Source: Deltaproteobacteria bacterium
GTDB lineage: Bacteria; Desulfobacterota; Desulfobulbia; Desulfobulbales; Desulfurivibrionaceae
Direction of reading: 5' to 3'
Length of the DNA: 64,000 nucleotides
Assembly (NCBI GenBank): GCA_013349295.1
Contig: DUZW01000014.1
Coordinates: forward strand, 1 to 64,000
Both the position numbers and the translations under genes were made by a program. A model generated the notes under the pieces. That model was not told the DNA's origin and did not search any database. It saw only the letters and a list, made by a program, of their open reading frames with translations. Shown piece after piece: positions 1-28,276 of the stretch. Within the stretch, counting starts at the first letter, position 1; each line of letters opens with the position of its first letter.

Positions 1-21
1 CGATATTATGGAGAAAAGCTA

Positions 22-384
22 GTGGGATTCGATTTACGGTACAATCTGATGCATATTGGCGACAACTTTAGTGATGCAGTTCATAAGACAGCAGACACTG
101 CCATCCAGTGTTCAAAGGCTGTCTTTTTTTCGTATGACATCCAGATGCTTCAGCGGAAAAAAAACAAGGCGGCTCGAGAAGTTGGCGAACGAGTATCAGC
201 GTTGGTCAAAGAGGGCACAGTCGATATATCTCAAGATCTGTTGCTGTCTGGGCTTATTGCCAAGCTTGATCTCATCGAAAAAGAGCTGGCGGCCCAAGAA
301 TCTGCGCGAACCGACTTGATGAGTTTGTTTACGATAAAAAAAACGGCGTGTGCATGCACTGCTAACCCTGCGGGGAAGGAGTAA
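22..384 (+). CDS. small magnetosome-cluster protein; paralogue of 18883..19296 by eye (DLRY..H.GD.F / VGERV / LD.IE)
   Basis: ORF with GTG start, immediately followed by the next plus-strand ORF; motif similarity to the second copy. Confidence 0.6.
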   Translation: MGFDLRYNLMHIGDNFSDAVHKTADTAIQCSKAVFFSYDIQMLQRKKNKAAREVGERVSALVKEGTVDISQDLLLSGLIAKLDLIEKELAAQESARTDLMSLFTIKKTACACTANPAGKE

Positions 385-387
385 TTT

Positions 388-570
388 ATGAGCAAGATAT
401 TGATTGGTGTTTTTTCGGGCATCTTTATTGGCGCAGTCATCTATGAACTGGTCAACAGGGCAAACCCGGATTTCATAAAGAAAATCGAAGATCTGGCCAG
501 CAACAAGGTTGACGAAATGTTAGGCGTTGCTAGTGGTGCTGTCGTAAACGAGACCCATGAAGCGGCTTAA
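388..570 (+). CDS. small single-TM membrane protein
   Basis: ORF with N-terminal hydrophobic segment ILIGVFSGIFIGAVIYEL; overlaps the start of the next gene. Confidence 0.6.
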   Translation: MSKILIGVFSGIFIGAVIYELVNRANPDFIKKIEDLASNKVDEMLGVASGAVVNETHEAA

Positions 571-1561
571 TCTTCTCGCAAATCCGCTGTTTCTGCTGCC
601 GCTGATCGGGGCCTTTATCTACGTTTATTTCTTCTATTTTACTGACGGACCAGTCAGAAGAAAAGACGCCCTCGAAGCAGAAGCCGAGATGGGCTGGCAG
701 GTTGCCCCGCAAAATAACCCCAAGGCCGCGCAGCAAGCTGCCCCTGGAGTTATCATGCAGGAACCGGAACAGCTTAATATGGGCAATGCTCAAGGGCAGA
801 CGAATGCCATGAATGGCGAGCCGTTTTTTGATAATCAGAATCGGCAGCACCAGATGGAATTGCAGGCAGAAAATATGCTCCCTCCGCGCAGCCAAAGAAT
901 GCGCCTCAGCCGTCAGGCTGGTGATCCGATAGCCATGGCCAATCAGAACGTTCAGCCCTTAGACTTCCAGCCTCCGGCTACGCTTGCAAACCCCGTGGTT
1001 CCGGTTGTCGGTGCCGCTATGGGAAAAACCTGGATCGAAGCGCATTGGATAGGTTTGGAGGCTGGACCCTTGCTTCCGGCGGTGGCAAAAGCCAACAATA
1101 TCCCGCCTGACGTATCTGGCGTTATGATTGACGAGGTAACCTTGCTGTCCGCCGATTCAGGATTGCTGGCCGGTGATGTCATTACCGCCGTCAATGGCAA
1201 TCGTGTCAGCGATCTTAAATCATTTCAAAATGCTACCAAATTGGTGGCTCAGGGAAACCAGGCCAAGCTGACCATCTACCGGCGCGGCGCCACCAAAAAT
1301 ATCATGGTTACCGGTCCGGATGAACTCGGATGGGCGCAGGTCGAGGGGGCGCCGATGATTCTTGCTACCGACAGAGCGCCACACGGGAGTTATGGTCCTT
1401 GCGACAAATGTCATGTTATCGCCCCTGGTAAAACCAATACCGGTCAGATGGCGAAAGATCTGGGCGATATCTTGGCTAAAACAGCGCCAAACATCAAGAA
1501 AGGTACGCCTCCACCACACGGCAACCGGGGGGCATGTACCCAATGTCACGTACTTCTTTGA
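557..1561 (+). CDS. mamP: MamP-like PDZ protein with two magnetochrome c-type heme motifs
   Basis: N-terminal TM, PDZ segment (SGLLAGDVITAVNGNRVSDLKSF), two P.H...G.C..CH motifs (APHGSYGPCDKCH, PPHGNRGACTQCH). Confidence 0.82.
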   Translation: MKRLNLLANPLFLLPLIGAFIYVYFFYFTDGPVRRKDALEAEAEMGWQVAPQNNPKAAQQAAPGVIMQEPEQLNMGNAQGQTNAMNGEPFFDNQNRQHQMELQAENMLPPRSQRMRLSRQAGDPIAMANQNVQPLDFQPPATLANPVVPVVGAAMGKTWIEAHWIGLEAGPLLPAVAKANNIPPDVSGVMIDEVTLLSADSGLLAGDVITAVNGNRVSDLKSFQNATKLVAQGNQAKLTIYRRGATKNIMVTGPDELGWAQVEGAPMILATDRAPHGSYGPCDKCHVIAPGKTNTGQMAKDLGDILAKTAPNIKKGTPPPHGNRGACTQCHVLL

Positions 1562-2463
1562 GTCAGTGCAACAGTAACGGCACTCTGCAAGAATGTCTGG
1601 CTTGTGAAAAAAAAGCCATATGGGTTGCCGTTTATGCAAACTTTACGCTGGCCATTTTTAAGGCTTTTATAGGGATTGTCAGCGGCAGCATGGCTATGCT
1701 GGGTGATGCGCTTTTCTCGTTTAAGGATTTTATCGCCTCTCTCGTCGGTGTTATCGGCATCAGGGTTTCAGGTAAACCTGCTGATGAGCAACATCCATAT
1801 GGCCATGGAAAAGTTGAATTTGTCGCCTTGTTTTTGATCAGCATGGGCCTTCTGCTGGCAACACTCTTTCTGCTTTTTCATTCGCTCAAGGGCATATGGC
1901 ATTGTTCACAAGGTTTCGGCCGTGCTCCGAAACTGGTTGTCTTTGGGGCGGCTCTTATCTCGGTAGTTGCCAACTATAAACTGGTGCAGTATCTGAGTTG
2001 TGTCGGAGACAGGCAAAAAAGCCACGCCATTCGTGCCAATACCCGCCAAAATCATTCTGGCGCACTTTCATCGATCATGGTTGCTGTGGCAATACTGGGA
2101 GCCCGCCTCGGCTACGTGTTTCTTGATCCTCTTGTCGCCCTTGTCGAGGCGGTTTGCCTTCTGTTCATGGGCCGGGATATGTTCCTGTCCGCACTCAAAG
2201 GGCTGTTTGATTCTGCGGCCCCTGCTGCGACGGTGGAGCGGATCGAATCGGTTGCCAGAATCGTCCCGGGTGTACGTAAGGTTGCCAAGATTGTTGTCCG
2301 TCAGCAGGGACAGGGACTCTGGATCGAGATGATGATCAAGATCGACCCGGACCTGACGCATCAAGAAGGGTATCTGATTGGCCTGCATGTAAAGGAAAGC
2401 ATCCTGGCCACGTTTGGCAACAAGACCACCGTCAATGTTTCTTTTGAGCCTTACATGCCATGA
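1534..2463 (+). CDS. mamM: MamM-like cation diffusion facilitator (start may be downstream, e.g. 1543)
   Basis: CDF family signatures; GDALFSFKD and HPYGHGKVEF resemble MamM rather than MamB. Confidence 0.75.
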   Translation: MYPMSRTSLSQCNSNGTLQECLACEKKAIWVAVYANFTLAIFKAFIGIVSGSMAMLGDALFSFKDFIASLVGVIGIRVSGKPADEQHPYGHGKVEFVALFLISMGLLLATLFLLFHSLKGIWHCSQGFGRAPKLVVFGAALISVVANYKLVQYLSCVGDRQKSHAIRANTRQNHSGALSSIMVAVAILGARLGYVFLDPLVALVEAVCLLFMGRDMFLSALKGLFDSAAPAATVERIESVARIVPGVRKVAKIVVRQQGQGLWIEMMIKIDPDLTHQEGYLIGLHVKESILATFGNKTTVNVSFEPYMP

Positions 2464-3149
2464 CAGATAACGGCTGGCTTTCAAAACTATTGATGATTAC
2501 CGGCAAATCGCTTCCGGTCATTCAGGCGCAAGTCCAGGAAATGAAGCGTGAATATGAGCTGGCACAGGGCGGCAAGCCTGAACGTTATGTTAATTATGGG
2601 GTCAGCAGCAAACTGATTAAACGGGCCTCCATGAAAACGGCAGCCTTCGGTGGGCTGGTCAGTGTTCCCGCCACGATTCCGGGGGTTGGTCTTATTGGCA
2701 CGTTGTTGGCTGGGATAACGGCAGATCTTGTCTATCTGGTTAGGACGCAGATTGAACTTTGCTACGCCATCTCCATCGTTTATGGCGTGCAGATGGATGA
2801 AGATGAACTTAAGGCTGTTTCTCTGGCCCTACTCGGATTTTCCGGCAGTGCTGAGGCGGCAAAGGGGATTGCGGTCAGAACTTTGCGGGGGGCTGTGGAT
2901 GAAATAACGGTTGCCTATCTCCGGCGGGGGATTCCAGATTCGGCCATGGATGTGTCGGCAAAACTGGTCCCACGCTTTGCGGGAAAAGCGTACCGGCTGA
3001 TTCCGTTTCTGGGCATCCCGATCTCCGCTTCGCTTAACATCGCTTCGACCATGATGGTAGGCAACCAGGCGCGGAAATATTTCAGCACCTGGGAGGATTG
3101 CCCTGAACTTTTGAGTGCTACCGGATGCTTAAGCGAAATCGTCACGTAG
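2460..3149 (+). CDS. EcsC-like membrane-associated protein
   Basis: ORF overlapping the mamM stop; glycine/alanine-rich hydrophobic core VPATIPGVGLIGTLLAGITADLVYLVRTQIELCYAI. Confidence 0.55.
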   Translation: MTDNGWLSKLLMITGKSLPVIQAQVQEMKREYELAQGGKPERYVNYGVSSKLIKRASMKTAAFGGLVSVPATIPGVGLIGTLLAGITADLVYLVRTQIELCYAISIVYGVQMDEDELKAVSLALLGFSGSAEAAKGIAVRTLRGAVDEITVAYLRRGIPDSAMDVSAKLVPRFAGKAYRLIPFLGIPISASLNIASTMMVGNQARKYFSTWEDCPELLSATGCLSEIVT

Positions 3150-3697
3150 TAGTGTTTGTTATCGTTGCCATGCTGCTGTATGTGTTTGCCAGGCACACCA
3201 AAAATGTTTTTGTCGAAGAACAGCATCTGCTCTTTATGGCATCAGGCTTGCTGGAAATCGAGATAAAACGGCGGGCAGACCTGCTTGACGGGGTAAGAGC
3301 GGCCGTGAAGCAGTATACCGAACTGGAAGAAAAGATACATACACATATGGTCGAACTGAATGGCTTGCAGACCCCCCGAAGCACAAACAAGGAACGCCTG
3401 GAAAAGAGCAATGAGATTTTGGCGCTGTTGAGCGAGATGGATGTACTTAAGGAAAAATATCCGGATCTGAAGAGTAATAATCCTTATCTGGCGTTGATGA
3501 AAGAGATGCAGACATCTGGGCTGCGGGTAATGAACTCACGGTTGATATACAACAGAAAGGTGAATGAATTTAATACCTTGCTGAACATATTGCCCTATAA
3601 TTTTTTTGCCAGACCTCTCGGTTTTCACAAGCATCCTTTCCAGCAAGGGGCAGGGGAAAAGTTCCTGAGAAATGAAGATATTCGTCACTATAAATAA
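3125..3697 (+). CDS. mamQ: LemA-family MamQ-like protein
   Basis: N-terminal TM; LemA pattern EIEIKRRADLLDGVRAAVKQYTELEEKI...YPDLKSNNPYLALMKEMQ...NRKVNEFNTLLNILPYNFFA. Confidence 0.8.
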   Translation: MLKRNRHVVVFVIVAMLLYVFARHTKNVFVEEQHLLFMASGLLEIEIKRRADLLDGVRAAVKQYTELEEKIHTHMVELNGLQTPRSTNKERLEKSNEILALLSEMDVLKEKYPDLKSNNPYLALMKEMQTSGLRVMNSRLIYNRKVNEFNTLLNILPYNFFARPLGFHKHPFQQGAGEKFLRNEDIRHYK

Positions 3698-3714: not shown

Positions 3715-4587
3715 ATGAAGTACACTGATTGTTTAAAATGTGGAGAAACCTCCCCGCGCTGGAGCTTCTTCGGTAATACCCTGGCGGCAATCTTCAAGGT
3801 GCTGATCGGTACTCTTACCGGGAGTAAGGGACTGGTGGCCGACGGTGTTCATTCGCTGGCTGATGCCATATCATCGCTGTTTATCATGGTCGCCCTCAAG
3901 GTCGCCGACAGGCCGCACGACGAGAAGCACCCTTACGGCTACGGCAAGATCGAGTACGTCAGTACGATATCTGCCAGTCTTTTTCTCTTTGCCGGAGCTG
4001 GCGCCATTTTTATTGAAGCCCTCAAAACCTTCAAGCATGGTGGCCATGAATTGCCGGGCAATGCAGCGCTGCTTGCCACGGTCATCTCGCTTTGTTTTAG
4101 TTATTTGATGTATATCTCGAATACCTGTGCCGGCACCCAGCTTGGTAGTCCGGCTATTCTTGCCGATGCCAACGAGAGCAAGGCGGACAGCATTACCTCC
4201 GTCGCTGTTTTGCTCGGATTGATTGGCGGAAAGCTCGGCTATCCGAGTGCCGATACCTTTGCCGCCATAATCGTCTCGCTCTTTATTTTCAACATGAGTG
4301 TCGAGATGTTTCTGCAAGGGACAAACGGCTTGATTGATATGTCGGTTGATCCTGAGGTCATGCAGGAAATTGTCGCGACAAGCATGAAAGTTGAAGGGGT
4401 TGCCGGGGTTAAATCGCTTAAAACCCGGCAGATGGGGCAAAAAAACTGGGTTGATATCGAAATATCCGTGTCAAAGAAGTTATCGGTGTTTGAGGTTCAT
4501 GGCATTATTGAAAAAGTTCGTGAAATGATAATGAGCGACGTTGATGGTATCAGAGGTATATCGGTTTCTACATATCCGATTTCTTAA
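3715..4587 (+). CDS. mamB: MamB-like cation diffusion facilitator
   Basis: CDF signatures; N-terminal MKYTDCLKC, DGVHSLAD, HPYGYGKIEYVS and NGLIDMSVD resemble MamB. Confidence 0.8.
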   Translation: MKYTDCLKCGETSPRWSFFGNTLAAIFKVLIGTLTGSKGLVADGVHSLADAISSLFIMVALKVADRPHDEKHPYGYGKIEYVSTISASLFLFAGAGAIFIEALKTFKHGGHELPGNAALLATVISLCFSYLMYISNTCAGTQLGSPAILADANESKADSITSVAVLLGLIGGKLGYPSADTFAAIIVSLFIFNMSVEMFLQGTNGLIDMSVDPEVMQEIVATSMKVEGVAGVKSLKTRQMGQKNWVDIEISVSKKLSVFEVHGIIEKVREMIMSDVDGIRGISVSTYPIS

Positions 4588-4608: not shown

Positions 4609-5007
4609 GTGATGACCAATGAAGCACTTTGCGAAATTTTCGGCATACTATGCTTACTGTTGTTCGTGTTTGCTAATGTATATTATCCGGCCCGATTGAT
4701 CGCCTATCAGTATCGCCCTTGGCCCAAGGATATCGTGATGTTTTTTAAAAAATATCGCGAACTCCACATGTCCGTAAATATTTTTGCATTCGTTGCCATG
4801 AGCATTCACGCGTATTTTTCCGATGAGCGCAACATCTTCCTGTACGCGAGTCTGCTGGTGACCGCCTGGTTGACGTTTGCAGGAATCCTGATGCGGTCCA
4901 AGCGTTTTTCCGGCGATACCAAAAGACAGATGCGGCTCATTCATACCCAGCAGACGATTTTTTTAGTATGGCTGGCATTGTTGATATTTGGTCACGTTGT
5001 CGAATAA
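4609..5007 (+). CDS. multi-TM membrane protein, possible b-type cytochrome (paired His in two helices)
   Basis: ORF between mamB and mamA; HMSVNIFAFVAMSIH (H-x13-H) and HTQQTIFLVWLALLIFGH (H-x16-H) helices. Confidence 0.6.
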   Translation: MMTNEALCEIFGILCLLLFVFANVYYPARLIAYQYRPWPKDIVMFFKKYRELHMSVNIFAFVAMSIHAYFSDERNIFLYASLLVTAWLTFAGILMRSKRFSGDTKRQMRLIHTQQTIFLVWLALLIFGHVVE

Positions 5008-5049: not shown

Positions 5050-5694
5050 ATGGCGATCAACATTGACACAAGTGAGCTTCAGTTTTTTGTAAAAGCATTA
5101 ACCATAAATGCCAAAAAACTGGTCGACAAGTCCATTGACGCTTACAACAGCCTGCTCCAGATAGATCCTCAAAGCGCTATGGAAATCCATAACGAACTTG
5201 GCGATGATCTGGAGAAAAAAGGCAACTACGATGGCGCCATAAGAGCCTACCAGAAGATCCTTTTGACTGATCCGAACAATGTCGCCGTACTTTTCAAACT
5301 GGGCAAGATCTACACCCGACTCGGCTTAAGTAGCGAAGCGCTGGAAACACTGCGTAAAGTTACCATCCTTGACGAACAGATCCCTGAAGCATTTTACCTG
5401 CTCGGGTCGGTTTATTTTTCTGCCGACAATAACACCGAAGCCCAGGAGGCTTTAAATCGGGCAATCGCCCTTAATCCAGGGTATGCCGATGCTTACTACA
5501 AGCTTGGCCTCATTGCCGATGCCCGCCATGATCAGGATGCGGCCATCAAGAACTACCTGAGAACAATCGACTTGAAGCCTGATTTTGTCAAAGCGTATCA
5601 GAGCCTCGGTTTCGCCTATGAAGCAAAAGGACAGCGTGACGAGGCCGTTAAATATTTCAAGAAATCTTTGGAGTTGGAGCAGAAAAAGAGCTGA
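5050..5694 (+). CDS. mamA: TPR protein, MamA-like
   Basis: Serial TPR repeats (PNNVAVLFKLGKIYTRLGLSSEALETLRK etc.); position between mamB and mamI; RBS cggagggg. Confidence 0.82.
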   Translation: MAINIDTSELQFFVKALTINAKKLVDKSIDAYNSLLQIDPQSAMEIHNELGDDLEKKGNYDGAIRAYQKILLTDPNNVAVLFKLGKIYTRLGLSSEALETLRKVTILDEQIPEAFYLLGSVYFSADNNTEAQEALNRAIALNPGYADAYYKLGLIADARHDQDAAIKNYLRTIDLKPDFVKAYQSLGFAYEAKGQRDEAVKYFKKSLELEQKKS

Positions 5695-5783: not shown

Positions 5784-6008
5784 ATGTTAAGTATCGTATT
5801 TGGGCTTATTGCACTGTGTCTCGGGTTTTGGAGTGTTATCCGCTACTGGTGGTACATGGTTGATGTGCTGATCGCCATCCTCCCGCTGCTGCTTATCGCG
5901 GGTGGCTCCATCGCCTTGTTGGCCGGCATCAAAAATACCGGCATTAGAACTTCTATCCAAAAAAATGTCCCAGAAGAAGAACCAGTCGCTAGAAAAACAG
6001 ACATATAG
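5784..6008 (+). CDS. mamI: MamI-like small two-TM protein
   Basis: LSIVFGLIALCLGFWSVIRYWWYMVDVLIAILPLLLIAGGSIALLAGI resembles MamI; located between mamA and mamE. Confidence 0.75.
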   Translation: MLSIVFGLIALCLGFWSVIRYWWYMVDVLIAILPLLLIAGGSIALLAGIKNTGIRTSIQKNVPEEEPVARKTDI

Positions 6009-7883
6009 GTGTCGCTGATGTCATCAGAGAAAAAAGCTGAGAATACAGCAAAAACTATCCTGCAACCTGAGCGGAAATGTGACCGTGAATACAAACCGTG
6101 GATATGGACACTGGTGGCAATGTCACTGGTTACCATCGTCTGGGCATTGTACGAAGGTTCGCAGGAGCAAGGGTACGTCAATAACTTCCTCAGCAACCAG
6201 CCTGAAGTCAATAAGGCGTTACCTGGAACGGGTACTCAGGTCATGCCGGCCCCTGGTGCTGTTGGTGATGTTCAGATCTCCTATCATGGCATCATCGATG
6301 CGATCAGGCCTGCAGTGGTGAGCATCGACGCCGCCATGAAAATCGTGCCGAACGCCGCCAATCAGGGCATGGTCGATCAGTTCCCCAATGACGTTGCCTT
6401 CAACAAAATTGGCTCTGGTGTCATTATTGATCCAAACGGCTATGTCCTGAGCAGCTACCACGTCATTGCTGGCGCGGAGGCCTTGAAAGCCACGGTTTAC
6501 GGCCCAGGCGGAGCCACGGAATACCCGCTGAAAATGGTCAAGGGTGATCTGCGTACCGACATGGCGCTGTTGCGCATTCAGGGCACCGGTCCGTTTCCTC
6601 ATGCCACTCTCGGTGATTCTGACGCGGCCAGAACCGGTGACATGGTGCTTACCGTCGGCAATCCGTTCGGTTTTGAACAGACCGTCACCTCCGGCATGAT
6701 CAGCAGCCGCAACCGGACCTTGCAGGTTGGCGACGCTATCTTTGAAAACCTTATTCAGACTGACTCCGCTATCAACCGTGGCAGCAGCGGCGGCCCGATG
6801 CTCAACGTTCGCGGGGAAGTAATCGGCATCAACACCGCCATCTTTGCCCCGACCGGCGTGTTTAACGGGATCGGTTTTGCAATTCCGATCAACCGAGCAG
6901 CCGAACTGGTTGGCGGCGTTGTCGACTTCAACAACACGGCTCCTGCCGGGATAACCGGTCAACTGGTCGCCATGACCAGCCAGGGTAGACAGGTAGGTAA
7001 CGCCTACCGCATGCCGAACGGGCAAATGGTTACCCCGCCTCATACTCCACGGGGGTCATGTGTTGACTGCCATCCGCAGCTCTTTTTACAGCAGCATACG
7101 GCGCAACCTGGTGTAGCTGCAAACGCAGATCCATTTTTTATGATGCCGCAGCAACAACAAGGAGTTATGCCGCTTGGCGCTGGCGCCGGACCGGGAAGAG
7201 GACTTTTTGGCCGCACCAATGGCGGGCCGATAACCGGTAATGGGCAATTTATTTTTAACGGTCAGCAGATGACTTTCACTGAACCGCTGATGGGAGTAGG
7301 ACTTGTCGATGTCGACGATATAATCTGCCGTCAGGCTCAGATGTTGCACCCGGAAGGCGTCATGGTTGTCAATGTCATCCCGAACTCTCCGGCTGATATT
7401 GCCGGTATTCAGCGTGGGGATATCATGGTGCGTCTTGCCGGCCGGAAAATCCTCAATATCGTCAAACTCAACGACCTGCTGTCAACACAAAATATCGGGC
7501 ACAAGTTCGATATCGTCTATCTGCGTAACGGCTCACGCATGACAACAAAGGTGAAAACCGGCTTCAAGAGTCAGGCTCAACAATTTCAACAGCTTGGCCC
7601 GATGCAACAAGCTATATATCAGTGGCAGCTCGGAGCCACGATAACTCCCCTGCCCCCGGCATTTGCTAATGTCACAAATGCCGGGGTGTACGTCCAGAAC
7701 AGCGGTGGTTTGCTTGCAGCCAACGGCCTGAGAAGCGGCGACATCATCAGGGGAATTAACGGGGTTCAGGTCGATACTCTGGATGCTTTTGTCAAGCAAA
7801 CCAAAAAGGTTGATAGCACCAAGGGCTTTGTTCTGGATGTCATTCGTTCGGGCAACTCCATGTACCTGACAATAAGAGGGTAA
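6009..7883 (+). CDS. mamE: MamE-like HtrA/DegP serine protease with magnetochrome motif and two PDZ domains
   Basis: Trypsin-like triad regions (SSYHVIAG, TDMALLRI, NRGSSGGPML), CXXCH magnetochrome (PPHTPRGSCVDCH), two C-terminal PDZ segments. Confidence 0.88.
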   Translation: MSLMSSEKKAENTAKTILQPERKCDREYKPWIWTLVAMSLVTIVWALYEGSQEQGYVNNFLSNQPEVNKALPGTGTQVMPAPGAVGDVQISYHGIIDAIRPAVVSIDAAMKIVPNAANQGMVDQFPNDVAFNKIGSGVIIDPNGYVLSSYHVIAGAEALKATVYGPGGATEYPLKMVKGDLRTDMALLRIQGTGPFPHATLGDSDAARTGDMVLTVGNPFGFEQTVTSGMISSRNRTLQVGDAIFENLIQTDSAINRGSSGGPMLNVRGEVIGINTAIFAPTGVFNGIGFAIPINRAAELVGGVVDFNNTAPAGITGQLVAMTSQGRQVGNAYRMPNGQMVTPPHTPRGSCVDCHPQLFLQQHTAQPGVAANADPFFMMPQQQQGVMPLGAGAGPGRGLFGRTNGGPITGNGQFIFNGQQMTFTEPLMGVGLVDVDDIICRQAQMLHPEGVMVVNVIPNSPADIAGIQRGDIMVRLAGRKILNIVKLNDLLSTQNIGHKFDIVYLRNGSRMTTKVKTGFKSQAQQFQQLGPMQQAIYQWQLGATITPLPPAFANVTNAGVYVQNSGGLLAANGLRSGDIIRGINGVQVDTLDAFVKQTKKVDSTKGFVLDVIRSGNSMYLTIRG

Positions 7884-7890
7884 AACGCCA

Positions 7891-8595
7891 TTGAAAGAGA
7901 TTATTGAAAAACTGTACGCTAAAGAGTTGAACCTTATCACGCCCAAACCGGTGGAGCTTAAGGAGACAAGGCGGCCGTTGGCAATAAGAATCAAAGAAAT
8001 AGCCTGGGACAGGCAGACGACTGCGGCTAAAATCGCAATGGTCTCTTTTGTCCTCCTTATTATAAGCTGCGGTGTCTACTACTATAACCTTTTCACGACA
8101 GAATCTTACATGGTTCGTCTTGAGGCGGCGCAGATCGAGGCGGAACTCCAGCGCAGAAAAGACCTCATTCCCGGCCTTGTCAAGGCGGTCAACGATTATA
8201 TGGCATATGAGGGTAAGGTTTTTGTCCATGCGGCAGATGTCCGTAGCGCACTTGGTTCGTTGAAAGAGATGACCACGGCTACTGCGGCGGCGCCCGCTCT
8301 ACCGGCGGACAAGGATCTTGCCAGTTTCAAGGCGGCAATTTCAAAGTTTCAGGCGGTTGCCGAAAACTATCCTGACCTAAAATCCTCGGTGACCTATCAG
8401 CATCTCATGGCCGAGCTTGCCAACACCGAAACAAGACTGGCCCTGGCGCGGGCAAAATACAACATCGCCGCCAATATTTACAATACGAGCATGGAGCTGA
8501 TACCCGGTGTTTTCTTTGGCTACACTCTCGGGTTCAGGCATGCAAAAACCTTTATTGCTGATAAAGAGGTCAAGCTTCCGTCTGCTGTGAAATGA
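7891..8595 (+). CDS. second LemA/MamQ-type protein with longer N-terminus (TTG start)
   Basis: TM plus LemA pattern AELQRRKDLIPGLVKAVNDYMAYEGKVF...YPDLKSSVTYQHLMAELANTETRLALARAKYN..YNTSMELIPG. Confidence 0.75.
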   Translation: MKEIIEKLYAKELNLITPKPVELKETRRPLAIRIKEIAWDRQTTAAKIAMVSFVLLIISCGVYYYNLFTTESYMVRLEAAQIEAELQRRKDLIPGLVKAVNDYMAYEGKVFVHAADVRSALGSLKEMTTATAAAPALPADKDLASFKAAISKFQAVAENYPDLKSSVTYQHLMAELANTETRLALARAKYNIAANIYNTSMELIPGVFFGYTLGFRHAKTFIADKEVKLPSAVK

Positions 8596-19350: not shown

Positions 19351-20055
19351 ATGGTAATTGAAAATCCTGCAATCCTACTGGACAAGGTTAAGGAAGTAAT
19401 GTGCCAGGTACAGGCCAAGGTCCGGGAGAAGGAACGTTCGATAGAGAGTTTGATTAACTCCGTAGGATCAACCCATAGCAAGGTATTGCTGATGCTCAAT
19501 GATCAAATTGATCATCTTGAGCTGGAGAAAATCAGACTACAGGACGAACTCAACATTCAGCTTGTCGCAAATGATGATTGTGTTGAAAGGTTGGGGATAG
19601 CGGAAGAAAAGAGTCAGGCAAGCAGTTCAAAAGTAGAGCATCTCGAGAGAGAAAAAGAAGGGCTTTTGGGGCAGATCGAAAACAATAGAGTCGAGAATAA
19701 AGAGCTTCATAAACAAAATAGTGAAATTGAAATCAAGCTCGATGATCAACAGAAGACCATCACGAAGCTTGAGCATGAGAAATCCGCACTGGCCGAGGAA
19801 AATGACCGCCAGAAAAAGAAGCTGCAAGGGGAGCTGCACCAGGCAAGCACGGAGATTAGCCAGCTCAATACCCGGGTAGCTGATTTGCAAGCCGAGCTTC
19901 AAAGGGTCAAATCTGAGGCGAGCGATCAGATACGCCAGCTTGCCGCAGAAAACAAGGAGCTATCCTCCGGCCTCGAGAAGGCGCTCCGCGATAAACGAAT
20001 TGCTGAGGCCCGAGCCCAGAAGATTCAGGAATCATGGGATCAGTTGGAAAGCTGA
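19351..20055 (+). CDS. coiled-coil protein
   Basis: Heptad-rich E/K/L/Q composition. Confidence 0.6.
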   Translation: MVIENPAILLDKVKEVMCQVQAKVREKERSIESLINSVGSTHSKVLLMLNDQIDHLELEKIRLQDELNIQLVANDDCVERLGIAEEKSQASSSKVEHLEREKEGLLGQIENNRVENKELHKQNSEIEIKLDDQQKTITKLEHEKSALAEENDRQKKKLQGELHQASTEISQLNTRVADLQAELQRVKSEASDQIRQLAAENKELSSGLEKALRDKRIAEARAQKIQESWDQLES

Positions 20056-20125: not shown

Positions 20126-21145
20126 ATGAACCAACCCAAAAAAGACATAATGGACTGCATCCTGTCATCCGGAAAGGATGTTAGCCATGATGGTGGCCAG
20201 ACGCTAGCCGAGCGGGAAGAGACCTTGCAGGATCTGCTCCAGACCCAGCAGGCTCTTGAGGCCAAGCTTCTCAACCTCAGGAATGAACTGGGTTCACGGG
20301 ACTCCTATCTAAAGGAACTGAACGTCAATTATGCCGCGTCTAAACGGGATGTCCCCCGATTGCGAGCGGACCTCTTCGCTTTAAAAGCAAAAATTGATAA
20401 TCTGACCTTTGCGACGGAACGCTGGAACACGTTGCTTGGTAAACAGGAGCGACAGATTGACCTGCTTGAGGCGGATGCGCGACGATTGACCGCGGCAACC
20501 ACCCAAGAGCAAGAAGATTTTGCCTCCCTGGAAAAAGAGATTTCCGAGGCTGAACGAGATTTTCAATCTTTTACCGAAGTTCGGGACAAATATACTGTTA
20601 TCCTGCGGGAACATGGGATCGACCACTTGGATCCCACGGTCTGCAAGACCTTACCCGAAGAATTTTCCGACCAGGAAATCCCCGACATTTCCTCTGCCAT
20701 TGAAATGTCGCTTACCACCATTAAGGATGAGCATTGCCAGATAGATGCCGCAAAGGCAAGGCAAGACAATCTGGCCTTGGCCCTGACGCAACTTGCCGCA
20801 AAAATCAGCGATACTCGCGAACAACGGGACAGTCGGCAGCAGGAATTAGACACCTTGCAGGCAGAAGTGGCTGAATGTGTCAAAGAAAACGACCTGAGAT
20901 TAGAAAAAATACGTACCCTGAAGGAACAATACCGGGCATATGAGAAAATTTTCCTGGAGAGTTTCGAAACCAGAGAGGAGTATGAGTCTTTGGCAAATCA
21001 GGTCAATGCGGCCTGTAACGAGCTCAAGGATTCTCTGGTCGCCAACAGCAGGCTGGAACTTTCCTTGCGGCTGGAGGATTTGAAGGCAAAACTCCAGATA
21101 AGTGAATTTACCAAAATTGGTTTTGTGATTCCTGCTTGCACATAA
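20126..21145 (+). CDS. coiled-coil protein
   Basis: Long heptad-rich ORF in the cluster. Confidence 0.65.
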   Translation: MNQPKKDIMDCILSSGKDVSHDGGQTLAEREETLQDLLQTQQALEAKLLNLRNELGSRDSYLKELNVNYAASKRDVPRLRADLFALKAKIDNLTFATERWNTLLGKQERQIDLLEADARRLTAATTQEQEDFASLEKEISEAERDFQSFTEVRDKYTVILREHGIDHLDPTVCKTLPEEFSDQEIPDISSAIEMSLTTIKDEHCQIDAAKARQDNLALALTQLAAKISDTREQRDSRQQELDTLQAEVAECVKENDLRLEKIRTLKEQYRAYEKIFLESFETREEYESLANQVNAACNELKDSLVANSRLELSLRLEDLKAKLQISEFTKIGFVIPACT

Positions 21146-21234: not shown

Positions 21235-22260
21235 GTGCAAAGAGAACAGATGCTGATGAGCAATTTAGAAACCACATTGTTAAATAGCCGACCAAAAGAG
21301 GAACTCCTTGGTATTATTAAGGATGTTACCGCCTTGATGGTGGATCGGCGAAAAAAAATATCTGTTTTGGTGGAGATCGATCGTTGCCGCCTGGAACTCT
21401 CTTTTCTTGAACAACAGGTAGTCAGGGCAGAGGCAGAACTCGCTGAGTTGAATGACAATATTCGCCAGAGAGAGGCCGTGGCTAAGGAGCCTGCGGATGT
21501 ATTGCTCAATCTCAAGGCTGCCAAGAAGACCTTTGAGCATGAATATGATAGATTTATGGCGATAGAGCAAAAAAGTCGCGTGCTCGTACAGGGGCGCAAC
21601 CTGGAGCTGATTGACCAGCTTACAGAAAAGAACACTTTTCTCGAACAGCGCCGGGCGATGATTCGTAATGGCAAGCAGGCTGCCGAAGCTCGACAAGATA
21701 ATCTGGCAATTCGTCAACAACAGCTTCGCGCAGAGTATAAAACCTTGGCGTATTACTTTGCCAATATTGCGGCCCAGGTAAAAGAGGAACTTGTAGCTCA
21801 GGAGAATGCGGCCAACGCCCTTGAAAATGAGCAGTCCGAAATGAACTCCCAGGTGCAAGGTTTGATGACGCAGGAGCAAGAAATTGTTGCCGGCCTGGAA
21901 AAACTTACGGAAGATCTTGCTGGCCAGAAAGACCTTGCCGGAGAATATCAGCGAACCATAGCTCATCTTGAAAAAGTCAAAGTCCGCCTGGACAAACTTG
22001 AAGATCCCAGCGAATATATCGATCAACTTATTGTCCGGCTGGAAAAAGAACGTTTGGGGACAAGAGCGAAAAAGGATGTTTTGGTAACCTTCGCCAATGT
22101 TATTAACGAAGTTAAGGAAATTAACCGCTCTCTGCAAAAAGAGATTCGTGATTACAGCATGGTTACCACCAAAATAGAGACGTTGCTCGGTACTCCTAAT
22201 CAGGATTTAGAAGCATGCGAGCCGGAATTGAACCAAAACTCCGGGAATGTAACTTCTTAG
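21235..22260 (+). CDS. coiled-coil protein
   Basis: Long heptad-rich ORF in the cluster. Confidence 0.65.
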   Translation: MQREQMLMSNLETTLLNSRPKEELLGIIKDVTALMVDRRKKISVLVEIDRCRLELSFLEQQVVRAEAELAELNDNIRQREAVAKEPADVLLNLKAAKKTFEHEYDRFMAIEQKSRVLVQGRNLELIDQLTEKNTFLEQRRAMIRNGKQAAEARQDNLAIRQQQLRAEYKTLAYYFANIAAQVKEELVAQENAANALENEQSEMNSQVQGLMTQEQEIVAGLEKLTEDLAGQKDLAGEYQRTIAHLEKVKVRLDKLEDPSEYIDQLIVRLEKERLGTRAKKDVLVTFANVINEVKEINRSLQKEIRDYSMVTTKIETLLGTPNQDLEACEPELNQNSGNVTS

Positions 22261-22295
22261 CAGTTTACCGGTTAAGATCAGGGAGAATTAAATTT

Positions 22296-23948
22296 ATGAA
22301 CGCCAATAACGACAATCAAATAAGGCGGTCTTCTGTTTTGTGGGGTATTGCCGCCGCTTTGAACGGCTGTGGCACGGCAGTAGTCGTATCCTTTGACACC
22401 GGGGCCAAGATGGTAGATAAGGTGATTGGTTCAGCTAAACATATTCCTGATCTGACCGGCAAGGCCAAGGGGCTTGTTACCGGAGGACTCGGAATCATCA
22501 GGCCGGCCGGAACCGCCAGGTTGTACGATAATATTCAAGAATATGAAGAGAAGGTCGGTAAACTCTATTATGAAATTGGCAGGGCAAGCGCCAACTTGAC
22601 TGCAAATGGCGAGGAAAACGAGGATACTGTCAAGAATTCTCAAGCGGTGAAAGAACTTTTCAACCAGGTTCAAGAGTATGAACGCCATATCAATGAGCTG
22701 AAAGTAAAGATTGTCGAGCTTGAGGCTGAAAAGAAATTAGAAGCAGAGAAGAAGCTTGCCGCAGAAGAAAAGATGAAAGCAGAAAAGAAAATGGTTGCGG
22801 AAAAGAAGGCGGCTGCTGAAAACCGTGAGCAGCAGGAAAAGTATCGTCGGGCAACATTGATAGTCAATCGCAACATTAAAGAAAAATCGCCTGAAGATCC
22901 TCGTAATGCGGTTATCGAGGTAAATGCTGCGATCAAAGAGGCGCTGGCTCATGGAAAATTTGAGTCAGCTTCTGATCGGGCTATCTTTGATAAAGTTGCC
23001 AAGGATTTACTGGATAAAGAAACCGAGATCAAAATGCTGGCTGCGGCAGAATTAGGCAAGATGGGAAGCACTTCGGTGGTTCCGGTGCTGCATGCCGCCA
23101 TTGGCCTTGGAGACCCGCATCTCACCAACGAAATAATCAATTCATTGGTAAACCTGGGAGATCAGCGGAGCAAAGCTGTTTTTTTACATTGTGCCAGTGA
23201 TCGCCATGAACGTGTCAGAGTAAGCGTTTTGCGAGGTCTTTACAAATTGGCCCCGGAAGATACTGCGGTGCGGTCGGTTTTTTATAACGCCCTGAGCGAT
23301 ACCAATCATGAAGTGAGAAAAACCGCAGCCACCCTGCTTGGTTGGCTGGATGATAAAGACGCAGTTCCCGCCTTGGTTCAGTGTCTCGGCGATGAGGATG
23401 CCCGCGTTCGGAAAGCGGTGGTTTCGGCACTGGCCAATATTAGAGATAATTCCAGTATGTTGCCACTCATCAGGCAGTTGCGTGATGATGACCTTGAAGT
23501 TCGAGAAAAGGTCTTGGGGGCTATCCGGGTACTGGCGGGTGAAGAGGTTGTCTTTGATAAGAGTGCCAGTGGCGATGTTCTGACTGCTGAACTGGATCGC
23601 TTGAAAAAATGGTGGCAAACGGAACGAATCGAGTGTGAAGGTGGCGGCAAAGCCAGAGCTGCCGCAAATAAGGCGGAAATTGACGATGAGCCGATGGGAA
23701 GAATCCCCGTGCAATCGGCGGAATTATTAAACGAGGCCTCGGCAGTTGTTTTAAGCGAAGCGCCAACCGTGGTGTGCAATTCTTCAGTTAAGGAGATTGA
23801 GATAACGGAAGATGCTGCTCAGGCAGAAGAAAATGTGAGCGTGCAGACGGAACCAGAAGCTGAGATAGTCAAGGAAGAAGCCAGCCAAAGTCAAGGCGAC
23901 TCCTCCTCAAACATAACCGACGCTGGAGAAGATCACAGTGCCGAATGA
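22296..23948 (+). CDS. magnetosome-cluster HEAT-repeat protein with N-terminal LYxEIGR coiled-coil domain and acidic tail
   Basis: ATG at 22296 preceded by gggag; HEAT repeats (DTNHEVRKTAATLLGWLDDKDAVPALVQCLGDEDARVRKAVVSALANI); N-terminus aligns to ORF 11650..12744. Confidence 0.7.
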   Translation: MNANNDNQIRRSSVLWGIAAALNGCGTAVVVSFDTGAKMVDKVIGSAKHIPDLTGKAKGLVTGGLGIIRPAGTARLYDNIQEYEEKVGKLYYEIGRASANLTANGEENEDTVKNSQAVKELFNQVQEYERHINELKVKIVELEAEKKLEAEKKLAAEEKMKAEKKMVAEKKAAAENREQQEKYRRATLIVNRNIKEKSPEDPRNAVIEVNAAIKEALAHGKFESASDRAIFDKVAKDLLDKETEIKMLAAAELGKMGSTSVVPVLHAAIGLGDPHLTNEIINSLVNLGDQRSKAVFLHCASDRHERVRVSVLRGLYKLAPEDTAVRSVFYNALSDTNHEVRKTAATLLGWLDDKDAVPALVQCLGDEDARVRKAVVSALANIRDNSSMLPLIRQLRDDDLEVREKVLGAIRVLAGEEVVFDKSASGDVLTAELDRLKKWWQTERIECEGGGKARAAANKAEIDDEPMGRIPVQSAELLNEASAVVLSEAPTVVCNSSVKEIEITEDAAQAEENVSVQTEPEAEIVKEEASQSQGDSSSNITDAGEDHSAE

Positions 23949-24627
23949 TGCAATAGTTATGACGGAAAGCACTTGGCTGGAAAAGAAAACCGAGCTTCTG
24001 CAGCGCAATTTGCCGCGAAAAATCCAGGAACGGATGATGAGCTGGATTGACAAAAAAGATGAGCTGCTCACCCGGCTGGTAGAATACAAGGGCTTTAAGA
24101 AGGATGGCGAGGATAGCGTTCTGCTTGAAAAGCAGGCGTTGATTGATGAATTGGACCATCTGGAAGAAGAGAACAGCCTTCTGTTGACACGGCTCCATGA
24201 TTTACAAAGGGATCTGGTACAGCGACGCAATAAGGCCAGACAGTTGTTTGACCAGCTTGCCGAAGCCAAGGACGACTATTTGCAAAGTTTGGCAAACGAG
24301 AGTTCTCTTAACTCGGAGATCAATTTTCAGGTAGCCGAACAGCAACAGGTTGAAAAGACTTTACAGGAAAAGCGCCAGCGCTTTGATAATAATATGGCCA
24401 CCCTTAGTCAATTGGTGGAAGAGATCAGATTTGTCAGCGGTGAGATCGAGATCTGGGCCGAAAAAATGATTTCTGTGGAAGCTGAAGTACCTGAACAGTA
24501 TCGGGAGGTGGAATTCCTCAATCATCAGATCGGTCATGCGCAAAAATCCATCATCGGTTTGAGTGACAAGCTGAAGCAAATGGAGCATAATGTCAAAATC
24601 AGCTATTACAGGTACAGGGACAAATAG
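23938..24627 (+). CDS. coiled-coil protein
   Basis: Heptad-rich ORF overlapping the previous gene. Confidence 0.6.
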   Translation: MPNDAIVMTESTWLEKKTELLQRNLPRKIQERMMSWIDKKDELLTRLVEYKGFKKDGEDSVLLEKQALIDELDHLEEENSLLLTRLHDLQRDLVQRRNKARQLFDQLAEAKDDYLQSLANESSLNSEINFQVAEQQQVEKTLQEKRQRFDNNMATLSQLVEEIRFVSGEIEIWAEKMISVEAEVPEQYREVEFLNHQIGHAQKSIIGLSDKLKQMEHNVKISYYRYRDK

Positions 24628-24711
24628 AGGCATTACGGATGTTTTTTTGCTTATAAAAAGCGATCACACCCGGACTGGCTTGATGTTTTACGGACACAAG
24701 GAGAAGGTGCT

Positions 24712-25488
24712 ATGAGTCCAGCAGCGACCACGGATTGGAAAAAAAGTGCGAAATTTACAGAGCAGTCTGTTGAGCAAGGATCGTCCAGAGTCTCTGTTTT
24801 GCCAGAGATAAAGGGCGTTGATTCCTTAAGGGATGTCTCCTACAATGTTGATCTGGAAAGATCCGTTGAGGAAATGGCCCATATTATCAGTAATATGGAG
24901 ACTCAGCTTGAACGTGTCCTGTTATTGAACTCTGTATTGGAAACGGACCTGAATGCCTCCAAGGAGATTATCGCTAATATCCTGTCTGAAAAGGAACAGC
25001 TGGCAAAAAAGATTGTCAGGATGGAAGCGGAAATGCCATCCAAGCGTGAATTTCAGATGGAGATCGACCAGCTGATTGACGAGCGGACAGCGGTGCAGAA
25101 TAAGGTTCATGAATTAAACGCCCGCTATGCCAAGCTTCAGGAAAGCTTGGATGAGTCACGCAGTAAGATCGCCCGCTTGGAGACAGAGAAAGAAGACGCG
25201 GTTTCTGAAATAAACTTTCTCGAAGCGCGTCAAAATGCGACCAGGCAACAGCACAATAACCTGCAGGAGAGGATTGACCAGCTAAAGGAAGAGAAGGTCG
25301 GTTATCAAAGAAAGATTATTGTCCTGCAGGAGGAGTGCCAAAAGGTGATGGAGGACAAATACTCCCTCATTAAAGAGTTACAGGAAGCAAGAGAAGAAAT
25401 TGCAGACCTGCGGGCAGCGTTTACTGATAACAAGGTAAGGGTACGGAAGGATTATTATGCTTCTGCTGACCTGCTTCGCAAGAGGTAA
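24712..25488 (+). CDS. coiled-coil protein
   Basis: Heptad-rich ORF; RBS aaggagaagg. Confidence 0.65.
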   Translation: MSPAATTDWKKSAKFTEQSVEQGSSRVSVLPEIKGVDSLRDVSYNVDLERSVEEMAHIISNMETQLERVLLLNSVLETDLNASKEIIANILSEKEQLAKKIVRMEAEMPSKREFQMEIDQLIDERTAVQNKVHELNARYAKLQESLDESRSKIARLETEKEDAVSEINFLEARQNATRQQHNNLQERIDQLKEEKVGYQRKIIVLQEECQKVMEDKYSLIKELQEAREEIADLRAAFTDNKVRVRKDYYASADLLRKR

Positions 25489-25491
25489 CCG

Positions 25492-26079
25492 ATGAGTCGT
25501 GGGGAGATGAAATCCGTGCCTGCCGAAGAGAAGGAACTCGAGTCTTCTATCGATGTGATCCGCGCCCTGTATGAGATCAAAAACATGCGCGATCTCTTGC
25601 GGAAGGAAAACGCCAAATATCGGCGGGAGATTGAAGCGGTAACCGCTGAGCTTGATGGCTTGGCGGTAATTGCTTCCGAGACCGATGAATATATTGCTGG
25701 ATATGCAGCCAAGCGTGAAACAGTCTTGGCTCGGATAGAAAAGATGCCGGTGCGGCAGACCCCGTTGGCGGAAAATCTCAATTTCCAGCGAATGCAATTG
25801 AAGGCGGTTAATGATGATCTTGAAAATAGTTCATCCATGCTGGAAACAATGGCCGGGGAACTGGAAAACATCAAAAATGAAAAAGAGATCATGATCAGCC
25901 GGTTGAAAGCGATCGATACCGGTATTCAAGGGATCTGTAAGGAAAAAGAAAGTAAGCTGCCAACCATTATGGGGCACGACAAAGTTCTGAAAAAGGCTTA
26001 CCGGGTATTTAAGGATGCTGAGAACAGGATGGAAGTCGCCATTCAGTTTCGTTCCTCTCCCAAACGGGGGGGAAATTGA
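25492..26079 (+). CDS. coiled-coil protein
   Basis: Heptad-rich ORF immediately after the previous stop. Confidence 0.6.
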   Translation: MSRGEMKSVPAEEKELESSIDVIRALYEIKNMRDLLRKENAKYRREIEAVTAELDGLAVIASETDEYIAGYAAKRETVLARIEKMPVRQTPLAENLNFQRMQLKAVNDDLENSSSMLETMAGELENIKNEKEIMISRLKAIDTGIQGICKEKESKLPTIMGHDKVLKKAYRVFKDAENRMEVAIQFRSSPKRGGN

Positions 26080-26100
26080 TCAGATGCAAAAAATAACCAG

Positions 26101-26490
26101 ATGACAACTGATGTTCTTGGAAATACTCTCTCTCAGATTGAGGAGAGTCTCGATTTAATTACTGCCACCGGGCTGTTGACCCGAGAGCAAAAGCCTGTCC
26201 TCTTAAAAGATATAAAGTATTTGCTCCTTGATAATATTGCCAAGGAGATCAAGTTGATTTTTTATAATCCTGATCGGCCGGATCAGGTTTTTTTAGAGTA
26301 TGTTTATACGTCATCTATGATAAGTGAGCCTCGTAATATGTTGGATGACATCTTGTCTTCCGACCCTTCTGCGGTCGCTTTTGATGTGTATATCGAGTTT
26401 ACCCGTGCCTTTCACGGCTTGGACAGGAACTTGCGGGATTTGTTGCAGAAGAATACGGAGTTTGAGTGGTATCCAGTTGAGGGTAGTTAA
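26101..26490 (+). CDS. small protein of unknown function
   Basis: Plus-strand ORF in operon context. Confidence 0.5.
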   Translation: MTTDVLGNTLSQIEESLDLITATGLLTREQKPVLLKDIKYLLLDNIAKEIKLIFYNPDRPDQVFLEYVYTSSMISEPRNMLDDILSSDPSAVAFDVYIEFTRAFHGLDRNLRDLLQKNTEFEWYPVEGS

Positions 26491-26544
26491 GAACTCATCT
26501 CCCCAGAGTGAGACTTCAGCATCGAATCAAGCGGCTAAGGTGAG

Positions 26545-27036
26545 ATGAAAATGGAAAATAACAAAATTTTAATTATCGATGATGAAGAGATTGTACATGA
26601 AAGTATCAACGATGCCTTGGAGGATGAAGGATACGAGGTGATCAGCGCCTATAATGGCGAAGAGGGCCTTAAGGCTTATGAGGTGCATAAGCCTATTTTG
26701 CTTATTCTCGATTTGAGAATGCCGGTCATGAATGGTAATGAGTTCTTGGTTAAGCTTCAGGTTAAGCCGGATGCTCCCTATTCGGTTATAGTGCTTACCG
26801 GTCATGGCTGTTCTGAGGATATGGAAACTTGTTACGACTTGGGGATAAGGTCTTTTTTGCAAAAGCCTTTTAATATTTATGAATTAAGATCCCTGGTACA
26901 GTCGTGCATCAATTTGAAACGAACAGAACTTAAACTTACCTCGGATGTTGCCAGACGTGAAGATGCGGAAACGCAGCTTGGCGAGTATCGGAAGCATCTG
27001 AACAAGATGTTTGATTCTCTTAAGATAGATATCTAA
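26545..27036 (+). CDS. response-regulator receiver protein
   Basis: KILIIDDEE...LLILDLRMPVMNG...LTGHG...FLQKPF. Confidence 0.85.
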   Translation: MKMENNKILIIDDEEIVHESINDALEDEGYEVISAYNGEEGLKAYEVHKPILLILDLRMPVMNGNEFLVKLQVKPDAPYSVIVLTGHGCSEDMETCYDLGIRSFLQKPFNIYELRSLVQSCINLKRTELKLTSDVARREDAETQLGEYRKHLNKMFDSLKIDI

Positions 27037-27079
27037 TACAGAAAAACAGACACTGTTAAGACGGAAGGAGGCGAGCTGT

Positions 27080-28276
27080 ATGGCGGATGAAATGGAAGAT
27101 CGAGTCGGCGGAGCAGAAGGTTCATATGGACTCAATGGGGAAAATGAGGCGCCTAAACTATTGGGTGCATTTGAAAGTGGCGGCCAGAGAAATGCCGAGC
27201 CTGATAGTACGATGGTCAAGGTTGCCGCATCTGCGGTAGAAGGTGCGGCCGGGCTAAAGCGTGATACAGCGGTGAAGAAAGAAGTTATCCGGCCGCAAAG
27301 TCCCTTGGGCGTAGATATTGGCACTGGCGGCATCGTAATTGCGGAAAGTCGCAAAGGTGAAGCACCGGTAGTTGAAATTATCAACTTCTTCAACTCTGTA
27401 TCTTTTGCCACGTTGACCAAAAACACTCCTATTCAAAATGAAATTCCCTATTTTGAGATGACGAACCTTAAGTATCTGATTGGCTACGGCACTGATCAGC
27501 TCACCGAAAAATTTCATACCCATCAATGGCGTCCGGTACCCTCCGAGTATTCTCAAGGGAATGAAGGGATTCCCCTGGTCGAGGCCATAATGCAGAACCT
27601 GATTGGCAGACCGCGTACTCCGGCGACCCCCTTATGTTTTACCGTCCCGGGCCGGCCGCTGGATGGATTAAATACTCTGGTCTATCATACCGAAGTAATC
27701 AGGCGTTTCTTTAATCATCTTGGTTATACGACCATGTCGATTAACGAGGGCCTGGCAGTGATCATGTCAGAACTCGCTGAAAATAATTTCACCGGGATTG
27801 GCGTTAGTATCGGTGCCAGCATGTGTAATGTTTGCGCCGCTTATCTTGCTGTCCCGCTGACTTCTTTTAGTGTTCAGACCGGTGGCGATTACATTGACAG
27901 CATGGTAAGCGCAGTAACCGGAGAGCAGGCTTCCGCTGTCAAGGAAACAAAGGAGAAAATCTTTACTCTGGCCCGTATGCCCAGCAACCGGTTGGAAGTG
28001 GCGCTTCACATTTATTACGAGGACCTGATCAGCAATGTTGTTAATCTTCTTATGGAAGAGTTGGGCAAGGGCTTGCTGTATAAAATTGGTCGGCCAGTGC
28101 CGGTTATTTTGAGCGGCGGAGTTGTGCTTCCTGAAGGTTTCAAGGAGATGTTTGAAAAGAGGCTGGCTAAAGAAACGCGGCTGGCGGCACAGATTTCTTC
28201 GGTGCGGCTGGCTGATAATCCCCTTACCGCAGTGGCAAAAGGCGCCATGTATATGGCTCAGGCTGAAGAGCTTTGA
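27080..28276 (+). CDS. mad28: second actin-like magnetosome protein, Mad28-like
   Basis: LGVDIGTGGIVIAES, VSIGASMCNVCAAYL, VILSGGVVLPEGF; actin/Hsp70 fold signatures distinct from MamK. Confidence 0.6.
   Translation: MADEMEDRVGGAEGSYGLNGENEAPKLLGAFESGGQRNAEPDSTMVKVAASAVEGAAGLKRDTAVKKEVIRPQSPLGVDIGTGGIVIAESRKGEAPVVEIINFFNSVSFATLTKNTPIQNEIPYFEMTNLKYLIGYGTDQLTEKFHTHQWRPVPSEYSQGNEGIPLVEAIMQNLIGRPRTPATPLCFTVPGRPLDGLNTLVYHTEVIRRFFNHLGYTTMSINEGLAVIMSELAENNFTGIGVSIGASMCNVCAAYLAVPLTSFSVQTGGDYIDSMVSAVTGEQASAVKETKEKIFTLARMPSNRLEVALHIYYEDLISNVVNLLMEELGKGLLYKIGRPVPVILSGGVVLPEGFKEMFEKRLAKETRLAAQISSVRLADNPLTAVAKGAMYMAQAEEL

Follow-up and report, generated by a model that had tools for sequence, protein, structure and literature searches.

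Magnetosome gene clusters (MGCs) are scattered over bacterial phyla, and trees have been taken to indicate that they move between phyla; in the portions of the literature considered here, the vehicles are described as unknown or as repeats with neighbouring transposases. Magnetosome islands, man-type clusters in the Desulfobulbia and interphylum transfer are already known (PMC4287615, PMC9938234, PMC9376291). In this study, we analyzed the first 64 kb (the window) of contig C14 (76,454 bp) of a draft metagenome-assembled genome (MAG) of the order Desulfobulbales (G000; 2.90 Mb, 66 contigs, 88% complete); the start of the window is the end of the contig. We consider it very probable (roughly 0.85) that a complete-looking MGC is present here as the cargo of a genomic island, inserted by a tyrosine integrase at the 3′ end of a tRNA-Leu(CAG) gene, and that the cluster itself is of mixed origin.

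The island shares features with several described systems. In Desulfovibrio magneticus RS-1 (PMC4287615) and in Magnetospirillum, the MGC is likewise part of a genomic island that carries mobile genes. The ends of the RS-1 island are 2.4-kb IS66 repeats (PMC4287615), whereas a tRNA-Leu attachment (att) pair bounds the island described here; a matching integrase accompanies it, and in sister species the site is empty. A silent MGC of Rhodovastum atsumiense G2-11 likewise adjoins a tRNA gene, on a proposed island (PMC9938234); the sections of that report considered give no att repeat and no congener for an empty site, both of which are available here. The man-containing MGCs of Thermodesulfobacteriota include those of three Desulfobulbia MAGs and of Candidatus Belliniella magnetica (Uzun et al. 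2022, PMC9376291, considered in part). As in the window, they combine a mad10-man3-mamP-mamM-mad31-mamQ-mamB-mad2-mamA-mamI-mamE-mamQ core with a Desulfobacterota host, which was ascribed to interphylum transfer. Compared by description, the parts of that paper considered describe neither an integration site nor an integrase nor plasmid genes, all of which are mapped here, and the mamK-mad23-26-mad28 half of the window has a different nearest relative. The Nitrospirota MGCs (locus L069 of genome N638, L068 and L071; Candidatus Magnetomonas LBB01) have the same core order, at ~40-60% identity, and N638 also shares a J-domain-like gene ahead of mamO-Cter. Among the Nitrospirota loci examined, none contains the Rieske/cytochrome b module of the window, which in turn has a truncated Mad23 where they have a full one, plus a second mad10 and a second mad block. 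The searchable literature yielded neither a magnetosome cluster for which integrase, att pair and empty site had been mapped nor one with this chimeric structure.

Junctions of the island at tRNA-Leu(CAG)

Both junctions of the island are present in the assembly, together with a reconstituted tRNA gene on contig C9, the adjacent integrase, the att repeat and plasmid-type genes, and congeners show the empty site. The right junction (attR; 47974-48028, plus strand) is a 3′ fragment of tRNA-Leu(CAG), with 98% identity over 56 bp to the complete tRNA gene on C9 (C9:7902-7988), which is the only other copy of this sequence in G000. On C9, ribF lies upstream of the complete tRNA gene, as in the congeners, and downstream of it are a tyrosine integrase gene (C9:6747-7817; Pfam E-value 1e-13) and a small excisionase-like gene, recognised by eye (C9:6438-6674). 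This arrangement, with the integrase and a complete tRNA at one end and a tRNA 3′ fragment at the other, is that of a tRNA-associated island.

The comparison set comprised 258 genomes of the host class, nearly all of one order, including 16 congeners. In 14 of these congeners the complete tRNA gene is directly followed by motA, i.e. the site is empty, with C14 matching one side of it and C9 the other. The congener alignment starts at position 47970 (in the genus search mostly at query base 275, equal to 47974), and the segment 47970-50600 has 82-88% DNA identity to most congeners. Host chromosome, with motA, motB, citrate synthase, trpS and other genes recognised by eye, occupies 48242-64000 (plus strand). 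The G+C content of this part is 0.555, within the 0.555-0.571 of the host, compared with 0.477 (C14) and 0.472 (C9) for the island, and the drop is located at ~48 kb. ARAGORN detected no complete tRNA in the window, and an Rfam scan of the window gave no match.

A 21-bp exact repeat (47836-47856, plus strand, and C9:7820-7840), a candidate arm site of the integrase, is located ~117 bp from the junction at one end of the island and ~60 bp from that at the other, in both cases on the island side. The closest relative of the integrase (64-74% identity) is a broken copy in another family, which also adjoins tRNA-Leu(CAG); neither the integrase nor MamK had a match among the PLSDB plasmids. Past the integrase, C9 contains an ArdC-like gene, an IS3 element, and genes for an AAA+ protein, an iron-dependent DtxR-FeoA regulator and the end of a kinase. 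The DtxR-FeoA regulator is of MGC type, its best match (46%) being in N638, a genome with one of the cores most similar to that of the window. Since this gene lies near the integrase on C9, MGC-linked genes are found at both ends of the island.

An insert of ~8.7 kb at the same tRNA in genome G197, encoding a TonB receptor, sensor kinases and other proteins, with no integrase recognised, was set aside as a different element. The sequence at 47700-47808, near the right end of the island, recurs in G000 (C30:18425-18506, L048) and in the congener G208 (C1:73710-73818, L045). These copies adjoin other tRNA-like 3′ ends, and the one on C30 is accompanied by a similar antitoxin/toxin pair. There is possibly a family of tRNA islands with a common end module.

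Extent and integrity of the magnetosome gene cluster

Genes were named using NCBIfam and Pfam profiles, with a cut-off of 400 bits for MamK. Except for MamK, the NCBIfam scores are under the equivalog cut-offs, and the Mam names other than MamK were therefore assigned from best matches, gene order and trees.

The first-pass annotation, made from the sequence alone, had described positions 1-28276 as a near-continuous MGC of the deltaproteobacterial mam/mad type. Near-continuity was confirmed: 35 open reading frames (ORFs), all on the plus strand, fill 95% of this interval with a median gap of 17 nt. The genes mamA, mamB, mamE, mamI, mamK, mamM, mamP and mamQ, which the annotation had placed on one strand, were all found by NCBIfam profiles on the plus strand within 1-18.9 kb, mamQ twice, so that the core gene set of an MGC is present. 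MamP contains the magnetochrome (MCR) domain PF18509, a mark of MGCs, with two matches (30.9 and 28.7 bits); this domain occurred in 0 of 14 control genomes. The limit at 28276 proved too short, as MGC-associated genes reach ~33.2 kb. The predicted continuation beyond the left edge holds: the window begins at a contig edge that truncates the cluster within a mad10-like gene, and on C9, beyond the gap, there is the MGC-type DtxR-FeoA gene. A search of G000 for a second mamK found a single MamK at an E-value of 1e-60.

The island and its chimeric cluster might also be just as described, with the MGC a silent or decaying passenger that makes no magnetosomes. An IS30-like remnant at ~28.4-29.1 kb (recognised by eye), a transposase gene at 30911-31954 and the IS3 element on C9 are in keeping with decay, and the Rhodovastum MGC, according to the part of that report considered (PMC9938234), documents a silent cluster on a tRNA-adjacent island. 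Against this, all 35 MGC genes are open and none is broken, the spacing is operon-like and tight, and the motifs checked are intact, namely the H-D-S contexts and single CXXCH of MamE, the two CXXCH of MamP and the motifs of the Rieske and cytochrome b proteins. We therefore regard a silent cluster as rather unlikely, though deserving of serious attention. In RS-1, subchains are assembled by Mad20, Mad23, Mad25 and Mad26 and placed by Mad28, and MamK distributes the sites of mineralisation (PMC12748827). Because the window has counterparts of these chain genes as well as the vesicle and iron genes, its gene content suggests that magnetosome formation is likely.

Two probable origins of the cluster

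The cluster is chimeric, combining a Nitrospirota-type mam core with a chain-organising block (mad23-26, mamK and mad28) whose nearest relative is found in another family of Desulfobulbales. The core (1-12.7 kb) follows the Nitrospirota/man-type order, with insertions, in agreement with the published order, and most of its genes have ~40-62% protein identity to Nitrospirota counterparts. It begins with the mad10-like gene, whose 5′ end is cut by the contig edge (1-384; 38-39% to the gene that follows mamK in L068), and a small membrane protein gene in the man3 position (388-570; 60% over 45 amino acids to L069). These are followed by mamP (557-1561; NCBIfam E-value 6e-62), encoding a PDZ domain and the two magnetochrome CXXCH motifs, mamM (1534-2463; 3e-99), the EcsC-like mad31 (2460-3149; 62% to L069), a first copy of mamQ in the mamQ-2 position (3125-3697; 1e-11), mamB (3715-4587; 1e-73) and a membrane protein gene in the mad2 position (4609-5007; 43% to L071). 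The tetratricopeptide repeat gene mamA (5050-5694; 3e-40), mamI (5784-6008; 2e-16), the protease gene mamE (6009-7883; 3e-69) and the second copy of mamQ (7891-8595; 3e-27) come next. The core ends with genes for (i) a WD40-like beta-propeller in the man4-6 position (8592-9707), (ii) a membrane coiled-coil protein with a C-terminal J-domain-like HPDR motif (9716-10600), which has a homolog at the same position in N638, (iii) mamO-Cter (10606-11508; Pfam TauE/SafE; 57% to N638) and (iv) an N-terminal homolog of Mad23 without HEAT repeats (11650-12744), best matched by the Mad23 of N638. Of man1-man6, sequence similarity backs the man3-position gene only: the man4-6 position is taken by the beta-propeller and J-domain-like genes, and man1 and man2 would be expected beyond the contig edge.

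Phylogenetic trees placed MamB (support 100/100), MamM (100/99) and MamE (100/100) inside Nitrospirota clades, as expected of a man-type cluster, and none of them in a Desulfobacterota clade. The approximately unbiased (AU) test rejected the grouping of MamB (p = 8e-4) and MamM (9e-9) with Desulfobacterota.

The second block (17.2-28.3 kb) has the gene order of Desulfobacterota mad-type loci. Every gene in it is nearest to G252, another Desulfobulbales genome with an MGC (loci L062-L064 on G252:C2), which belongs to a family other than that of the host and in which mad28 is located apart from the mamK-mad23-26 block. The block consists of a gene upstream of mamK (17247-17771; 49% to its G252 counterpart), mamK (17788-18858; 442 bits, above the cut-off; 78%), a second mad10-like gene (18883-19296; 46%), three coiled-coil genes in the inferred mad20-22 position (19351-20055, 20126-21145 and 21235-22260), mad23 with HEAT repeats (22215-23948; 46%), coiled-coil genes in the mad24 (23938-24627), mad25 (24712-25488) and mad26 (25492-26079) positions, a gene without assigned function shared only with G252 (26101-26490; 43%), a receiver protein gene (26545-27036; 71%) and mad28 (27080-28276). 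The last of these, already reported as a second actin-like protein, encodes a Volactin-family actin (Pfam Volactin 2e-67; 47% to the G252 Mad28). Grouping with Nitrospirota was rejected by the AU test for MamK (3e-9), Mad28 (7e-14), Mad23 (5e-6), Mad24 (6e-7), Mad25 (3e-4) and Mad26 (6e-3).

The deltaproteobacterial assignment thus fits the coiled-coil/actin block and the Desulfobacterota host, while the mam core is of the Nitrospirota/man type by order and by the MamB, MamM and MamE trees. The phylogeny suggested earlier for MamE, MamK and MamB divides accordingly, MamE and MamB grouping with Nitrospirota and MamK being separated from them. The first-pass annotation had missed the island, its tRNA-Leu junction and the plasmid-type genes at 34-47 kb.

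A whole Nitrospirota man cluster could have moved in one piece, the mad/mamK block differing only through divergence. In Nitrospirota, too, mad23-26 follow mamO-Cter, and the window MamK has 58-62% identity to those of L068 and L069. This explanation seems very unlikely, given the identities of MamK (78%) and the receiver protein (71%) to G252, the AU results for MamK, Mad28 and Mad23-26, and the presence of two mad10 copies and of a HEAT-less Mad23 at the Nitrospirota position in addition to a full Mad23. The two mad10 genes and the HEAT-less second Mad23 at the seam are the residue expected from the joining of two clusters. As for the direction in which the core was transferred, Uzun et al., in the part considered, discuss both (PMC9376291).

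Rieske/cytochrome b module and other genes of the cluster

A redox module is located between the mam core and the mamK-mad block. It encodes a Rieske iron-sulfur protein (12744-13193; Pfam) with both cluster boxes (CTHLGC and CPCH) intact, a cytochrome b of the fused b6/IV type (13382-14488; Pfam) with intact PEWY and haem histidines, and a membrane pentahaem cytochrome c (14452-15258) with five intact CXXCH motifs. The nearest cytochrome b in the class (43% identity) belongs to another family, and the genus contains a single partial match of 36%. Searches of the other MGC genomes gave cytochrome b matches of 42% or less, none of them seen inside an MGC locus; a literature search for an MGC with Rieske and cytochrome b genes found no published case. 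We conjecture that this module hands quinol electrons to periplasmic or magnetosome c-haems.

Between the module and the mamK block there are genes for an 80-amino acid LG-repeat protein of the Mms6/MamD/MamG type (15424-15666; LGLGLGLG-WGPI; NCBIfam MamD 4e-11, Mms6 3e-9), a hydrophobic Gly/Ala-rich membrane protein (15723-16265), for which a homolog search found none, and a receiver-PAS protein (16265-17092; 40% to L070, a Nitrospirota MamK locus). The gene mms6 was reported missing from Desulfobacterota and Nitrospirota (PMC9840458), in contrast to the Mms6-type match in the window. A protein similar to the LG-repeat protein is encoded at L072:1629-1934.

Beyond mad28, the MGC-associated genes encode a CZB-domain protein (30307-30843, plus strand), 45% identical to one encoded in the Nitrospirota MGC region N641, and a receiver protein (32770-33183, minus strand), 45% identical to one encoded past mad26 in Nitrospirota N639. 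A small glycine-rich membrane protein encoded past the transposase (32140-32433) had no detectable relatives in the loci compared.

Plasmid-type and other genes of the island

The island encodes a plasmid replication initiator of the Rep_3 family (34197-35633, minus strand), as a plasmid-derived element would; it has homologs in 377 plasmid records, with best identities of 37-41% to plasmid initiators. A search for iterons at the origin showed only two copies of an 18-bp sequence (35643 and 35675). Other genes of this region encode (i) a replication-relaxation protein (36150-37133, plus strand), (ii) a DnaG-type primase-like protein with a CHC2 zinc finger (37719-39134, minus strand), (iii) a second replication-relaxation-like protein (42025-42720, plus strand; weak match), (iv) a HerA/TrwB-VirD4-like ATPase (45531-46826, plus strand) and (v) a toxin-antitoxin pair (46898-47481, minus strand) with weak matches to YafQ (46898-47278) and Phd/YefM (47170-47481). 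A DUF2958 gene is also located between the MGC and attR, and PADLOC gave only weak matches with the island genes. The segment 39250-40750 is rich in repeats: one is a direct repeat of 210 bp (93%), and several are palindromic and contain ACCCTTGAYAGACCG. Two neighbouring genes for CsgG/LpoB-like lipoproteins (42693-44367) lie in the part of the island with the lowest G+C content (0.35-0.39).

It is conceivable, but unlikely, that this is a still-mobile plasmid or integrative and conjugative element that delivers a ready magnetosome kit between distant bacteria, with its own quinol-oxidising complex wiring the recipient's quinone pool to the magnetochromes. If so, even recipients that lack an equivalent complex could start to make magnetite immediately.

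Distribution among relatives

None of the 16 congeners has MamK or a magnetochrome. Magnetochromes were found in 5 of the 258 class genomes (one of them with a weak single match), while MamK-family actins were present in 56, often as tandem pairs and almost all without a magnetochrome. Since most MamK matches occur in magnetochrome-less genomes, MamK alone is no proof of an MGC in this class; MamK-like actins possibly have a non-magnetosome use there.

Three further Desulfobulbales genomes contain MGCs: G220 (C54, locus L065, and C52, L066), G186 (C29, L060 and L061), which belongs to the host's own family, and G252. In the MamB and MamM trees, G220 groups with Pseudomonadota, and G186 and G252 with Desulfobacterota. 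The core cation diffusion facilitator genes of Desulfobulbales MGCs thus track three sources (Nitrospirota-like, Desulfobacterota-like and Pseudomonadota-like), which disfavours simple vertical descent. A vertically inherited, ordinary Desulfobacterota mam/mad cluster would suit the Desulfobulbales host and the Desulfobacterota order of the mad23-26/mad28 block. It is rejected as highly improbable, because the trees and AU tests of the core proteins, the empty sites in the congeners and their lack of MamK and magnetochromes contradict it.

Weighing the evidence

Misassembly or misbinning, in which an MGC and plasmid sequence were joined to a Desulfobulbales chromosome, is suggested by the draft state of the MAG and the shift in composition at the junction; it is scarcely credible and was dismissed in view of two exact, reciprocal junctions, with the join precisely at the tRNA 3′ end, the integrase/ribF junction on a second contig, the 21-bp repeat inside both junctions and the empty site in congeners.

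Several points weigh against the proposed island and its double origin. Positions C9:1 and C14:1 are contig ends and the stretch between them is unassembled, so the island is demonstrated by its two ends and not as one molecule. Both att copies in G000 (C9:7902-7988 and 47974-48028) have the variable arm GGGTGCAAGCCC, and the congeners have GGGGGTTTCCTC or close variants; because this arm differs from that of all congeners, the island-derived bases of the tRNA are not separable. No relaxase or mating-pore gene was recognised among the part of the ORFs tested, on an island partly unassembled, the VirD4/TrwB-like ATPase being the only gene seen of the conjugative type; 'plasmid-derived or mobilisable' is therefore the safest wording, with self-transfer at most a possibility. 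Nitrospirota clusters likewise hold mad23-26 and mad28, so the chimera leans on trees, some with long branches, and the AU p-values presuppose groups named in advance.

On the favoured explanation, an island with a chimeric MGC integrated at tRNA-Leu(CAG), the element was probably acquired horizontally in a plasmid-like or conjugative form and would provide a non-magnetic lineage with the genes for magnetosome building. MamI, MamQ, MamB, MamM and MamE would build the vesicle and load iron, the magnetochromes of MamP and MamE would control the ratio of Fe(II) to Fe(III), and the crystals would be aligned by MamK, Mad10, Mad20-26 and Mad28.

Because the ends of the element, its integrase, the target tRNA and the empty site can all be named, excision and transfer are open to direct tests. 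As the chimera shows, the core for mineral formation and the block for chain organisation are exchangeable as modules, and the island would show how a magnetic organelle can move between bacteria.

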